DNA of 63,264 bases from a virus: positions 1 through 63,264 of IMG/VR virus record IMGVR_UViG_3300036770_000545; one strand, given 5' to 3'. Below, one piece after another: positions 1 to 63,235 of the stretch. A model generated the notes under the pieces. The model worked only from the letters and a program-made list of their open reading frames with translations, ran no database searches and was not told the origin of the DNA. The first letter of the stretch is position 1. The number at the start of each line of letters is the position of its first letter. Position numbers and translations under genes: made by a program.

Positions 1-127
1 AAGCAAGGGTGCCACCAGCGGTAATGATTTTGCCAGCGTGCGCTGCAACAGTGAGCGACGTATTGGCAGTGATGTTAACGACGTTGTCGGGGCCTTGCGT
101 GATAAAGCCGTTCAGCGACCGGACTGG
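1..127. repeat. 127-bp exact direct repeat, left copy (other copy 62963-63089)
   Basis: Positions 1-127 are identical to 62963-63089; the first mismatch is at 128 (G versus C at 63090). Beyond it the copies stay recognisably homologous through the leader but differ. Exactly 127 bp starting at base 1 is what a k=127 de Bruijn assembly leaves when a contig begins at a repeated node. This suggests a tandem gene duplication or a circular genome broken at this repeat. Confidence 0.9.
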
Positions 128-151
128 GCCCTGGAAAGTAGTTTGAGCCAT
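1..151 (-). CDS. Virion fibre/decoration-like protein, N-terminal part (cut by window edge)
   Basis: The start codon is at 149-151 (ATG), preceded by AAAGGAAG as ribosome binding site. The visible 50 residues begin MAQTTFQGPVRSLNGF and match residue for residue the N-terminus of the complete protein at 62574..63113, so this is a second copy of that gene or the other side of a circular junction. It lies directly downstream of the major head gene, its terminator and a structured leader. A surface or decoration role is inferred from position and the Thr/Ala/Gly-rich composition of the full copy. The C-terminal part is missing because the sequence starts here. Confidence 0.75.
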   Translation of the reverse strand, partial: MAQTTFQGPVRSLNGFITQGPDNVVNITANTSLTVAAHAGKIITAGGTLA

Positions 152-157
152 TTTTGG

Positions 158-224
158 CTTCCTTTCGTGTAGTAGCACATTCCCGTACCGTCTCTACTAA
201 GTCTGCCAAGCCAGTCTGTACGGG
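158..224 (-). ncRNA. Candidate structured leader RNA with kissing-loop/pseudoknot, copy 1
   Basis: Read on the minus strand, CCCGTAC (224-218) pairs with GTACGGG (188-182), enclosing a 29-nt loop. UAGUAG in that loop (199-194) can pair with CUACUA (175-170), itself presented in a small GUG/CAC hairpin, just before the ribosome binding site (165-158). Copy 2 at 63119-63184 keeps the loop motifs but changes the stem to CTCGCAT/GTGCGAG, with compensating changes on both sides. The element lies downstream of a Mu gpT-type head gene, the location described for the 'Mu-gpT-DE' RNA motif; I cannot confirm that identity. A cis-regulatory role or a processed small RNA are both possible. Confidence 0.65.
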
Positions 225-253
225 CAAAAATCTTGGTAACTAGAGAATACAAC

Positions 254-282
254 AAAAGGGGGGTTTTGCAACCCCCCTTTTT
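254..282 (-). terminator. Rho-independent terminator after the major head gene
   Basis: GGGGGG (258-263) and CCCCCC (272-277) form a stem with an 8-nt loop. It is flanked by A-runs and T-runs on both sides, so it can work in either direction. It lies 6 bp beyond the major head gene stop. Confidence 0.9.
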
Positions 283-288
283 CACTGC

Positions 289-1200
289 TTAGTTCGCACC
301 GGGCGAACCGAACATTCCCAGCGGATCCGAGAATCCGAAGGAGTAACGCTCACGAGCCTTGTAACGCACGTTGCCCGTATCGAAGTCTCCGTCCATGGAC
401 TGGGCCAGAGGAGTACGAACAAAGTGCTTCATGCCGTTGGGCACATCCGTCGTCAGGAACCAAGCATCGGTATCCGTCAGGAAGTGGTTAACGGCATAGC
501 CCTCGGGGATAGCGCCATTGCTCTTGATTGCGTTGATGTCGTTATCGGCAGTGGCCGTACGGAGTTCAGTCTCCAGCAGGCGGGTTGCCACGAACATCAA
601 TGCAGGCGGAATAATGAGCTTACGGGGCTTAGCAGCGATCAACAGACCACGCTCGTCCGTCCAACCAGCGATCTGAATAACGGCGGCTTCCAAAGAAGTC
701 TCGTTCAGGTCAGCCGGAGTGGCGGGCTCGTTGGAGTTGACACCACCAGAAACCAGGGGGTGCTGGGTGTCGAACAGGGGCTTTCCATCTCCACCGGGGA
801 AGCTGGAATCAAAACCATTGTTCAGCACGGCAGCAGCTTTGGTCTGCTTGGTGTAAGCCATGGCACGGGCCAGAGCCTTGGTGTAACGGCTGGAGAGAGA
901 ATCATAGAGGTTGTCCTCAATGGCCTCTTCCGTGACCGAGAAACCAAGAGCGATGGTCTCGTGGGTGTAACGAGCAGTGAAAGCTTCTTGCGCGTTATCG
1001 TAGGCAATCGCACTGCCTTCGTTCTTCACCGGGGCGGCGGAGAAGCCAGACAGTTTGGTTTCCTCTTCAAACGAACGCTCTGAAGATTCGGTCTCGTAAA
1101 TCTCCTTATGCTCTTCGCCGTAGCGTGCATACTCAAGACCAAACAAAGCGTTCAGTCCTGGGAGGAGTTCTTTAAGTAGTTGTGCGCGTGAAATAGCCAT
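289..1200 (-). CDS. Major head (capsid) protein, Mu gpT-like
   Basis: This 303-aa protein is the probable shell subunit of the head. The N-terminal third is acidic (ETESSERSFEEET), followed by an alpha/beta body with the stretch RKLIIPPALMFVATRLL near residues 192-208, characteristic of the Mu-like major head subunit gpT family. The C-terminus is RYSFGFSDPLGMFGSPGAN. Its start is fixed by AAGGAG 8 bp upstream. It is the last gene before a strong bidirectional terminator and follows the scaffold-like gene and two small head genes, the usual order for head assembly. Family placement is by recognition, not a search. Confidence 0.85.
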   Translation of the reverse strand: MAISRAQLLKELLPGLNALFGLEYARYGEEHKEIYETESSERSFEEETKLSGFSAAPVKNEGSAIAYDNAQEAFTARYTHETIALGFSVTEEAIEDNLYDSLSSRYTKALARAMAYTKQTKAAAVLNNGFDSSFPGGDGKPLFDTQHPLVSGGVNSNEPATPADLNETSLEAAVIQIAGWTDERGLLIAAKPRKLIIPPALMFVATRLLETELRTATADNDINAIKSNGAIPEGYAVNHFLTDTDAWFLTTDVPNGMKHFVRTPLAQSMDGDFDTGNVRYKARERYSFGFSDPLGMFGSPGAN

Positions 1201-3264: not shown

Positions 3265-3672
3265 TCATGCGCGACTAATGCCTCGGGGGTCATCAACCAC
3301 CCCTTCAACAGAGTCATCGTTAATAATGCGGAACTCGCGTCCGTGGATCTTTACTCGGGTGCCAGCATGTGGGCGCACCAGAACAAAATCCCCTTGTTTA
3401 CACCATGGGCCACTTGGGAACCTAGCTGTATCTTTGTAGCAATCGGGGCCCATCTTGACCACAAACAGCACGGTCGTAAGAAGTTCCTCGTACTTTAATA
3501 CTGCGTCGGCCTTAAGGATTCCACTTTCGTAGGTACCTTCAATCTCAGGGATTGCGCACAGGATTCTGTATCCCGACGGGTCCGGCACTTGTTTTGCCTT
3601 TTCTTCTGCGGTTTCAGGCAATACCGTTGCTTCGTTTGGATCGTCTGTAGACCCAATAAGGATTTCACTCAT
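3265..3672 (-). CDS. GroES-like co-chaperonin (Cpn10 fold)
   Basis: 135 aa. After a disordered 30-residue N-terminus, the rest follows the Cpn10 pattern: GYRILCAIPEIEG at the first strand, a mobile-loop-like ESGILKADAV, MGPDCY in place of the usual VGxG turn, then CKQGDFVLVRP and FRIINDDSVEGVV at the end. Cpn10 forms a heptameric lid for GroEL; phage versions (for example T4 gp31) help fold their own head protein. Its place between portal and scaffold fits a head-protein folding factor that works with host GroEL. It overlaps the neighbouring small gene by 8 bp. Confidence 0.7.
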   Translation of the reverse strand: MSEILIGSTDDPNEATVLPETAEEKAKQVPDPSGYRILCAIPEIEGTYESGILKADAVLKYEELLTTVLFVVKMGPDCYKDTARFPSGPWCKQGDFVLVRPHAGTRVKIHGREFRIINDDSVEGVVDDPRGISRA

Positions 3673-32823: not shown

Positions 32824-35800
32824 ACTTCTGCTCTTGGGGAACCCTAGTTTTTTCAGTTAACTCGAAAACAGTATTCGCTAACCTCGGGTCAACAGAAAGT
32901 CCTTCTTCAGCTATTGCTCTGCGTTTGGCTTTACCCGAAAGCGAACTAATTATGGTGTCTTGAGTAATTGGTAGTACAGCTTGATTTTTGTAGTTGTACT
33001 CAGCTATCGCTGTATAAGCTTCATCTATTGCTTCGTCATTAGCTTCTGTTGGGTTTTCGTTATACCGCACGTAGGCTTTGTCCAAATCTCTGAGAACTTT
33101 AGTACGTTCTTTTTCGATGGTTCTGACCATCTGCTTAGCCCTAAAGTTTTTCTTCTGTATCTCAGCCACTTCCGTGCTTTGGAATCCAAGAGATTGTGCA
33201 AGCAGCTTGCCAGTGGTGTACCACTCGGCATCCCGTATTTGATCTCCAGAACTAGTTTTTAAACCTTCTTCACGCAAACGGTTAGCCGTTATTAACCCAC
33301 GTATAAATGCGGGTGATATTTTTTCAAGTGCTTTGTTTAGCTCACCATTGTTATAGTCATCAAGAGCGGCAAACATTTGTTCACCCATAGAACCAAACGG
33401 ACCTGCAAGACCAATTAAAAAGTTTTGCCATGCTTCTCTTGAAGTAGCAGCAGGAACATCTTCTCGGAACCACATACCATCAAGTGATGTAGATGCAGCA
33501 ATATTTAAGTCGGTTAGCCCGGATATTGGACCCATTTTTACAGATCGCTGTAAAGTCAGGGCTTGTTCTTCTGTTAAACCTAACGCTGTGGCAAGATCAC
33601 TTCCAGAGCCAAAGTAAGTTGGAATAAGCCACTCTTCAAACCACAACTTGAGGTTACGTTTACCTAGCGGATTGCCCTCATCATTTTCATCGTAGAAGAG
33701 GTCTTCATCTTCATCACCCATTTCAGGGCGTAATGCTTCCCGTAAACCTTCTGCAAGCCCCAGTATCATGCTGTAACCGGGCAGACCTACTACACCAGCA
33801 AACAACCAAGTCATGCCGAGAGTACCGAAGAACTTAATTGCTGCGTCTCGCTTATCCTCTTTATTGAGGTAAGGCAGCATCCCGTAAAAATTACGCACCA
33901 GATATGAAGTCATCTGGAGGGGATAAGTCATAAACTGCGTACCTAATTTAGTAGCAGCATTGGCTTTCATCAAACGGGGTTTGTTGTACTGGGTGTAGTT
34001 AAACAACGACTCATAGACCAGCTTGGTTGCTACATCAATTGCTTTAGTAGCTGCTTCATTGTCATTCAACCCCTGTTCTTTGGACCGAGCAAATTCCAAC
34101 TCAAAGGCCGACATGTACATGGTTTCACGGGAAATACGCTCAAGGTGATGGAAAGCACCACCCATAAAATTTAAGATGGCGTGAAAACCTTTACTTGGAA
34201 GCCCTTGATACTCAGCAGTTGGTGCCTGCGCCCGTGCAGTCATGTCAGACGCATAGGTAGACATAAACAAATCTTTGTCCTGTCCAGCTTCCCACGCACG
34301 CTTTAGTATTCTGCGATAGTTCAGATTAGGGTGCTTATTGACATAAGCAGAATCATTTATTGAAGGCTCACCCCATTTAGTAGTGACGTTACCGTTTGCA
34401 TCCCGTTTTGTAGTACCAAACTTGTTAAAGAGATTGGAGTAACGAGCAGCAGTGGCTGCGGCTTTTATTGTTCCATATTCAGCAGCCAGAACCGGCAAAC
34501 CAACAATAGGAAGCTGCGTCATCTGCACTAGAGCAGACTTGGGGGATGTCAGCATGTAATAAAACACTGCTTGGTTGCCTATGTTTGCTAAAGCATCCCA
34601 GTTAAACTCCCCTGGCACTTGAGGAGTCATCTCCGCAGTGGCACGAATTGCAATCTCATCTACGAATGCACGTAGCTTCAGCGCATCTGGATTACCTGCA
34701 AGTTCAGCATAAGCAGACCCAAGGGCCAGCCTAACGTCATCAGCATAAGCCAGACGAGAAAGCTGGTTAGCCGCAGTATGCTGAGAAGTGATGAAGTTGC
34801 GAAGCACATCCGCACTAAAACCAGTCTTACCTTGGCGGTGAGTGAATTTACGGCGGATGTCTCGATCAGGCAAAGTCATCAAATACATCTGATAGACCTG
34901 ATCTTTAACTGCATCTATGTCAGTAATACCAGCTTTGCCAGTAGTAGGGTCTACAACGCTTCCATCTTCAAGTGCTTTGAAGATGTCTTTAAGCATCTGG
35001 CTAGACTCCATTACTTCATTACGAATCTGATTTAGGTCGTCACCGACTTCAAAAGACTGGTCTGTGAGAACATCTTCGTAGGTCTTACCTGCTTCCTCTG
35101 CACGCTGACGAGCGTAGTTGTTACGAGCCGTTGCAGACTCAAACATGTGAAATTCACCTGACTTACCTTTGCCAATACGCAACCAGAAGTTGCCGTACCG
35201 CATAAGCGGGAAGTAAATTCCAAGTTGTTGGGCTTCTTGGAAAGTCTGCGTGATCTGAGCGATCAGCTTACCTTTAGGGGTGTTTGGGTTGTTAACCTGT
35301 CCGGGGATGTTAGCTTTAGTGATCTTGTCAATCAGCAACTGCTGGTGCAAGTCAAACGTATCCTTGTAGGCATCTTTTGCCATCTTAAAGATTTCGTGAC
35401 CCTCACCGTTGCCGTACTTGCCAAGCTGCTCCCAACCCTCGATGGTGTACTTTTCACCCGTATCAGGGTTAACAACTGTGCCGCCTTCGTAAACAATTTT
35501 AAGTTCATTCTCGCGTTTAGTAACCGCACCCTTGGCAGCAGTGCGTTGACGCGGAGTTTTAGCGGGATCAGCTAAAGCAGCTTGATAGTCAGCCTTGAGC
35601 TTTTGTAGCTGTGAGTCATTATTTAATGCACTAGCTAAGTCTTTATGTTGCGTTGGGTCAACAGCTAGCAGCGTAGATGCGTGCATAACTTCGCCTAGAG
35701 TACGACCTCCTTTTTCGTACCTCTGACCAAACTTAACCCATTGGGGTACCCGCTCAGCCAACTCACGAATCATCTTGGCACGCATACCAGCCATGTCTTG

Positions 35801-62573: not shown

Positions 62574-63113
62574 TTACGAATCAGCAAACGGAGTAGCGGG
62601 GGATCCTGTGCAGTTCACAACGCCTTGAACCATGTACTTGGCGCTCGACAGAGCCGTGATCTGGACGTAAGACCCAGCCACACCACCCGTTGTACCACCG
62701 TTGAGGTTGATCGCATCGTTGGTAGCAGCAGGAGCAAAGCCAGCCATGGCACCAGAAGAGTCGGTGTCGATTGTCAAGATGGAACCCGTGAACTTGTCAG
62801 TACCGTCCGTCACAATCTTCAGGCTGCTCGTAGCAACCGTCGTGGGCACGAAGAACGTAAAGACAGCGCCTTGGTTGTTGGGGTTGTTGGGATCTTGACC
62901 GGGACCAGCCGAAGTGGGCGTAGCCGTGGTATTGATTGCGGGGAGAGTCAGAACCAAGTTGGAAGCAAGGGTGCCACCAGCGGTAATGATTTTGCCAGCG
63001 TGCGCTGCAACAGTGAGCGACGTATTGGCAGTGATGTTAACGACGTTGTCGGGGCCTTGCGTGATAAAGCCGTTCAGCGACCGGACTGGCCCCTGGAATG
63101 TGGTCTGCGCCAT
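62574..63113 (-). CDS. Virion fibre/decoration-like protein, complete copy
   Basis: 179 aa from ATG 63113; AAAGG is 7 bp upstream. Begins MAQTTFQGPVRSLNGF, has IITAGGTLASNLVLTLP and QGAVFTFFVPTTVATSSLKI, and ends NCTGSPATPFADS. Beta-rich and Thr/Ala/Gly-rich, as capsid decoration proteins are. The first 50 residues are identical to those of the partial gene at 1..151. It has its own promoter and structured leader. Confidence 0.75.
   Translation of the reverse strand: MAQTTFQGPVRSLNGFITQGPDNVVNITANTSLTVAAHAGKIITAGGTLASNLVLTLPAINTTATPTSAGPGQDPNNPNNQGAVFTFFVPTTVATSSLKIVTDGTDKFTGSILTIDTDSSGAMAGFAPAATNDAINLNGGTTGGVAGSYVQITALSSAKYMVQGVVNCTGSPATPFADS
62963..63089. repeat. 127-bp exact direct repeat, right copy
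   Basis: Identical to 1-127; divergence starts at 63090. It lies 175 bp inside the right window end, so the ends do not simply overlap. Confidence 0.9.
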
Positions 63114-63118
63114 GGTAA

Positions 63119-63184
63119 ACCTTTCGTGTAGTAGCACATTCCTCGCACCGTCTCTACTAAGTCTGCCGAGCCAGTCGATGCGAG
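63119..63184 (-). ncRNA. Candidate structured leader RNA, copy 2
   Basis: On the minus strand CTCGCAT (63184-63178) pairs with GTGCGAG (63148-63142). Compared with copy 1, two pairs change on both sides (C-G to U-A, U-A to C-G) and one becomes U-G, keeping the helix. UAGUAG (63159-63154) and CUACUA (63134-63129) are kept and can pair. The ribosome binding site begins within 5 nt after the second element. Confidence 0.65.
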
Positions 63185-63206
63185 TAGAACTCTCGGATCT
63201 GACACC

Positions 63207-63235
63207 TTTTTATCAGGTTGTTTGTGGGGTGTCAA
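63207..63235 (-). promoter_or_regulatory. Late promoter for the fibre/decoration operon
   Basis: TTGACA (63235-63230), 17 bp, TAAAAA (63212-63207). An inverted repeat TGACACC/GGTGTCA (63200-63206 and 63228-63234) brackets the promoter and may be an operator. Confidence 0.65.

Follow-up and report, generated by a model that had tools for sequence, protein, structure and literature searches.

A structured RNA of four interleaved helices, which have been kept by compensatory change, lies upstream of a virion gene at each end of the aquatic phage contig analysed here (63,264 nucleotides, positions 1 to 63,264 of IMGVR_UViG_3300036770_000545; hereafter the window). Both copies in the window have this structure, and the element was detected in 153 of the fetched loci. 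It is probably a cis-acting 5'-untranslated leader RNA controlling translation of the putative capsid-decoration gene downstream, a reading drawn from comparative sequence data.

Structure of the element

The two copies were confirmed at the sites originally predicted (158-224 and 63119-63184), each on the minus strand, and they were the only two matches in the window of R1, the covariance model built from the window's subtype (239-152, 89 bits, for copy A; 63199-63111, 87.6 bits, for copy B). Copy A, as delimited by this match, alignment A1 and the sequence itself, extends from the 5' strand of the first helix to the start codon (149-236), and copy B as a whole occupies 63111-63197. Four helices, P1, P2 (the main stem), P3 and P4, were recognised by a descriptor scan. 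Their strands follow each other in the order P1' P2' P3' P1'' P3'' P4' P2'' P4'', which gives three pseudoknot crossings (P1 with P2, P1 with P3, and P2 with P4). On the minus strand the 5' half of copy A reads CCAAG-AUUUUUG-CCCGUAC-AGA-CUG-G-CUUGG-CAG-ACU-UAGUAG-AGACG, and the 3' half continues GUACGGG-AAUGUG-CUACUA-CACGA-AAGGA-...-AUG. P1 pairs CCAAG (232-236) with CUUGG (210-206), as indicated by self-complementarity and the descriptor; P2 pairs CCCGUAC (218-224) with GUACGGG (182-188), as indicated by the descriptor, covariation and a tree-based null. P3, recognised by changes at its middle pair, is formed by CUG (214-212) and CAG (205-203) around the 3' strand of P1, so that it spans 203-214. 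P4 joins UAGUAG (194-199) to CUACUA (170-175) on the evidence of covariation, and for the 3' strand also of the descriptor and of its spacing from the Shine-Dalgarno (SD) sequence AAGGA (160-164). In copy B the descriptor and the alignment place P1 at 63196-63192/63170-63166, P2 at 63184-63177/63149-63142, P3 at 63174-63172/63165-63163 and P4 at 63159-63154/63134-63129, followed by the SD sequence AAAGG (63124-63120) and AUG (63113-63111). Joints of the GAC type are invariant in the fold.

The two copies share the P4 sequence UAGUAG/CUACUA and differ in the main stem at two pairs, both changed on both sides (C-G to U-A and U-A to C-G), exactly as the original prediction had read them. A third compensatory pair was found in P1, where A-U is replaced by G-C (CCAAG/CUUGG versus CCGAG/CUCGG). 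P2 and P4 had thus been identified correctly in that prediction, but P1 and P3 had been missed, the helices being four rather than two; the 5' strands of P1 (236-232 and 63196-63192) fall outside the coordinates it gave. The kissing-loop form GUG-CUACUA-CAC is seen in nearly all elements of the window's subtype (111 of 113) but in none of the 45 of the other, and was therefore rejected as a general feature; its GUG/CAC pairing, the letters of which never vary, is only putative.

Covariation analyses

In a sequence-only MAFFT alignment of 60 sequences of the window's subtype (subtype 1), 98.2% of 1020 cells pair, and two-sided changes are present in 137 cells at 12 of 17 pairs, a level reached by 0 of 500 shuffles. 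When the partner was shifted by one column, pairing in this alignment fell to 16-34%. All eight P2 columns covary in it, P4 shows the covarying sets AU/UA/GC, GC/UA and UA/CG, and the middle pair of P3 appears as UA, CG and AU (UA/AU/GC in subtype 2). For 22 sequences of subtype 2, 86 cells at 18 of 25 pairs changed on both sides, and 0 of 500 shuffles reached the real values on four of five measures. An RNA structure with covariation and a pseudoknot adjoining the ribosome-binding site, as first proposed from the two copies, is thus borne out by further homologues.

A tree-based null was also applied, in which substitutions were redistributed over a FastTree tree in 60 simulations and evaluated by a home-made G-test (an R-scape-like re-implementation rather than R-scape itself). 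The six highest-ranking of 3570 column pairs belonged to P2, P2, P2, P4, P2 and P2. Four pairs were significant at E<0.05, among them the pseudoknot pair 45-75 of P4, and three P2 pairs had E<1/60. For P1, the variable length of the P1-P2 linker prevented such counts on the MAFFT alignment, and self-complementarity was tested instead. An exact complement of P1 was present upstream in 168 of 184 elements; for non-consensus variants of the P1 3' strand the complement was found in 77 of 93, compared with 4.7% when partners were swapped.

An unrestricted descriptor scan of whole loci was too permissive (6002 matches versus 4513 in shuffles at a score of at least 36) and the scan was therefore narrowed to start regions, in which the structure score reached 40 in 161 of 289, versus 1 of 289 single-base shuffles. 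The 158 distinct elements contain 100 different P2 helices and 29 different P4 helices, a few of which are probably false fits. Conservation of P4 in the loci found by a DNA pattern was forced by the search pattern, and the P4 changes come from loci selected by protein.

Distribution and subtypes

The DNA pattern scan of viral contigs yielded at least 120 stretches, and loci were also fetched by the decoration protein and by the capsid protein to avoid a choice based on the leader. With R1 or with R2, the model built from subtype 2 (both with rough E-values), the element was detected at E<=0.05 in 68 of 79 capsid-selected loci. All matches in these loci were on the strand of the capsid gene and, save one weak extra match in L211, downstream of it. 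Among the 11 loci with no match, several extend no more than 600 bases beyond the capsid gene, and one (L230) carries the element according to the descriptor. R1 and R2 found 29 loci in common, and since each detects many loci of the other subtype the two were treated as one family. A third, divergent subtype was noticed in marine pelagiphages (HTVC027P, L293:5471-5553, and the loci L189 and L194), which R1 finds weakly (E 0.15). The element is also carried by a cultured HTVC023P-type pelagiphage, and the sole match in a BLASTN search of the leader against cultured phages was DSL-LC04. Bacterial genomes scanned for the capsid gene gave mainly metagenome bins, and no host was inferred for that reason.

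Genomic context

Downstream of the capsid gene come a GC-rich terminator, a -10-like box, the element, the SD sequence and the start codon of the decoration gene, in that order. The gene at 289-1200 (minus strand) encodes a Mu gpT-type major capsid protein (PF25209, E 3.6e-15; PF10124, E 1.7e-11; phrog_371, E 8.7e-26), and the location of the leader after such a gene, as originally suggested, was confirmed by the PF10124 match. An intrinsic terminator (GGGGGG..CCCCCC-TTTT, 252-284, minus strand), seen likewise in many relatives, separates the capsid gene from the leader, and a -10-like box TATTCT follows at 244-249 on the same strand, with a predicted transcription start about 3 nt before P1. 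Hexamers resembling a -10 box cluster 16-13 nt before P1 in 73 of 147 elements, versus 8 in shuffles. We infer from these sequences that the transcript begins 2-4 nt before P1, which would place the knot at the 5' end of the mRNA.

In front of copy B the promoter consists of TTGACA (63235-63230), a spacer of 17 nt and an extended -10 box TGA-TAAAAA (63212-63207), all on the minus strand (63207-63235). This layout is shared by L170, L172, L182, L186, L202 and L038, and in relatives it overlaps the 3' end of an endonuclease-like reading frame. Some genomes have a gene for an endonuclease VII-like protein (phrog_1035) between the capsid gene and the leader. The 3' end of this gene overlaps the TTGAC-17-TGnTA promoter and contains its -35 box, and the stop codon provides the TG of the extended -10 box. 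Insertions of the endonuclease VII/HNH-like type were seen at L182:1824-2417, L170 about 2312-2905, L186:860-1441 and L221:3979-4617. The reading frame that ends upstream of copy B (..KLDTPQTT*) resembles the endonuclease tails, with only about 50 bases of it within the window.

P4 nearly always lies at, across or just upstream of the SD sequence. In subtype 1 its 3' strand terminates 2-5 nt upstream of the SD sequence in 113 of 119 elements, and in 42 of 46 elements of subtype 2 it overlaps or abuts the SD sequence (-5 to 0 nt). In HTVC027P, L189 and L194 the 3' strand of P4 (CUAGG/UUAGG) is the SD sequence itself, as judged by eye, the scan fitting L189 poorly.

The genes after the two leaders are a putative decoration gene cut by the contig end (gene A, 1-151, minus strand, beginning MAQTTFQGPV) and a gene for 179 amino acids (gene B, 62574-63113, minus strand). 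The product of gene B had no match in Pfam or PHROG, and a PDB sequence search with both virion proteins gave none. For the AlphaFold model of the gene B product (mean pLDDT 78.7, alignment of 30 rows), the nearest structure in Foldseek was the Pseudomonas phage Pa223 capsid spike (E 2.3e-5, probability 1.00, with a TM score of only 0.45), and the DSL-LC04 gene at the same position is annotated as a cement protein. The predicted fold and this position together suggest that gene B encodes a cement- or spike-like capsid-decoration protein. Elsewhere in the window, 3265-3672 (minus strand) has a weak match to chaperonin-10 (GroES) below the cut-off (E 0.003), and annotated relatives have a GroES co-chaperonin gene within the head module.

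Origin of the two copies

Positions 1-127 of the window are letter-identical to 62963-63089, over exactly 127 bases. The number 127 is a common largest k-mer in short-read assemblers, and the left end therefore looks like a broken node of an assembly graph. The shared stretch is probably an assembly k-mer overlap, so that the contig ends may join, with two variants present at the leader. Two elements were present only in the window among 153 loci, and only in the window and one other record (G022) among 35 long records. In G022 the elements also lie at the contig ends, before different proteins, and its ends share no sequence, so tandem copies are conceivable for the window. Strain variants of one locus seem likelier than tandem paralogues. 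Two copies are present, as had been reported, but their description as a duplication upstream of paralogous genes is made doubtful by the 127-base overlap of the contig ends.

Comparison with known RNAs

None of the 4227 Rfam 15 models, those of ribozymes and riboswitches included, matched the window or 20 relatives at the gathering score, and a literature search, covering mainly openly accessible papers and part of the RNA collections, found no description of the element. Pseudoknot pairing engages the ribosome-binding site in the nested pseudoknot of the Escherichia coli alpha (S4) operon leader and in the SAM-II and preQ1 riboswitches; the element has no sequence or Rfam match to these and its helix order differs. 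The operator of T4 gene 32 is, like the element, a 5' leader pseudoknot upstream of a ribosome-binding site (here P2 with P4, with covariation in both helices). The homing endonuclease gene segG overlaps the 5' part of the T4 leader (PMC535899), which resembles the endonuclease gene just upstream of the element. However, the T4 operator is a simple pseudoknot of about 28 nt with a less structured stretch and is recognised by the single-strand binding protein gp32, whereas the gene product here is similar to a capsid-surface protein.

A link to the Mu-gpT-DE motif (RF03012) had been suggested from the location after the capsid gene. The genomic slot is indeed the same in relatives, but the element does not belong to RF03012. 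At the gathering score (49 bits) this model matched neither the window nor the element-bearing relatives; over the two leaders there was nothing even at E<=10, and a search of the whole record gave only chance-level matches, none of them at the element. R1 and R2 in turn do not find the loci bearing RF03012. The model scored above its cut-off in Roseobacter phage CRP-902 (OQ401624, L295, at 34455-34507), L305, L307 and L312, and just below it in L309 and L310, and these matches sit in the same gap between the capsid gene and the next gene, before the same kind of gene. One slot therefore holds alternative RNAs, either RF03012 or the element. Mu-gpT-DE has 53 nt with one outer helix and one hairpin according to Rfam, compared with about 88 nt, four helices and three crossings in the element. 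It covers the SD sequence and AUG of the gene that follows the capsid gene, and in the Rfam structure line the 5' CCUG of its outer helix pairs with the CAGG of the SD sequence. RF03012, typed as an sRNA in Rfam, thus has the appearance of a 5' UTR in which the SD sequence of the next gene is paired. Such pairing is absent from the window, in which the 5' strand of P4 lies inside the P2 loop and the 3' strand ends before the SD sequence. A different hairpin was seen in the same gap of Synechococcus phage MinM2 (L291:1515-1650), with a loop CGUCUCC complementary to the SD region GGAGACG; this is perhaps another independent SD-engaging pseudoknot. Taking the element and Mu-gpT-DE together, we regard it as an evenly balanced proposition that phages of this group retain, at one site, an RNA that engages the SD sequence, whereas the sequence and fold of that RNA are replaced over time.

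Possible function of the leader

If the element controls translation, the 30S subunit would be kept off the ribosome-binding site with P4 formed, and with P4 open the decoration gene would be translated. The covarying structure, its place behind the capsid gene, the position of P4 at the SD sequence, the predicted 5' end and the SD pairing of RF03012 in the same slot all favour this reading. The trigger could be the decoration protein itself (as gp32 acts on its own leader in T4), another factor, or folding kinetics only. The element is retained ahead of two protein families not joined by BLAST (150 and 6 members), which also counts in favour of translational control but makes autoregulation by the product slightly less likely, unless the families share a fold. 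Occlusion is less direct in the window's subtype because P4 ends a few nucleotides upstream of the SD sequence. A strong and simple P4 pairing could also just hold translation at a steady low level, with no switching.

The knot might instead stabilise the mRNA, shielding the abundant transcript of the decoration protein from 5'-end-dependent decay with no regulation of translation. The transcription start predicted 2-4 nt before P1, the separate transcription unit after the terminator and a virion protein made in many copies would all suit a stabiliser, but stability alone leaves unexplained both the fixed placing of P4 relative to the SD sequence across sequence-divergent subtypes and the pairing of RF03012 with the SD sequence in the same place, and we consider it unlikely. 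It is rather improbable that P4 acts as a translation enhancer, keeping the SD sequence directly downstream single-stranded and promoting 30S loading: the gap of 2-5 nt in subtype 1, in which the SD sequence is not included in P4, agrees with this, but SD letters are within the P4 strand in subtype 2 and in HTVC027P. The compact multi-pseudoknot fold with invariant joints could recall a self-cleaving ribozyme or a processing signal, and genes of Mu-like phages are a known neighbourhood of hammerhead and twister ribozymes (PMC10085705), a published link in favour of this reading; yet no Rfam ribozyme matched and the fold is linked to an SD sequence and a start codon, neither of which a ribozyme requires, making it very improbable. 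Conservation of the DNA as a promoter or endonuclease target, to which the endonuclease genes inserted just upstream might point, can practically be dismissed given the two-sided compensatory changes in all helices and the support against both shuffles and the tree-based null.

Few structured RNAs are known in phages, and the element adds one with three interleaved pseudoknots, supported by covariation, in phage groups that are abundant in both lakes and oceans. It also bears on the status of Mu-gpT-DE, listed in Rfam as an sRNA. Translational control by the leader would provide a concrete hypothesis for the way in which these phages tune the decoration protein separately from the capsid protein.
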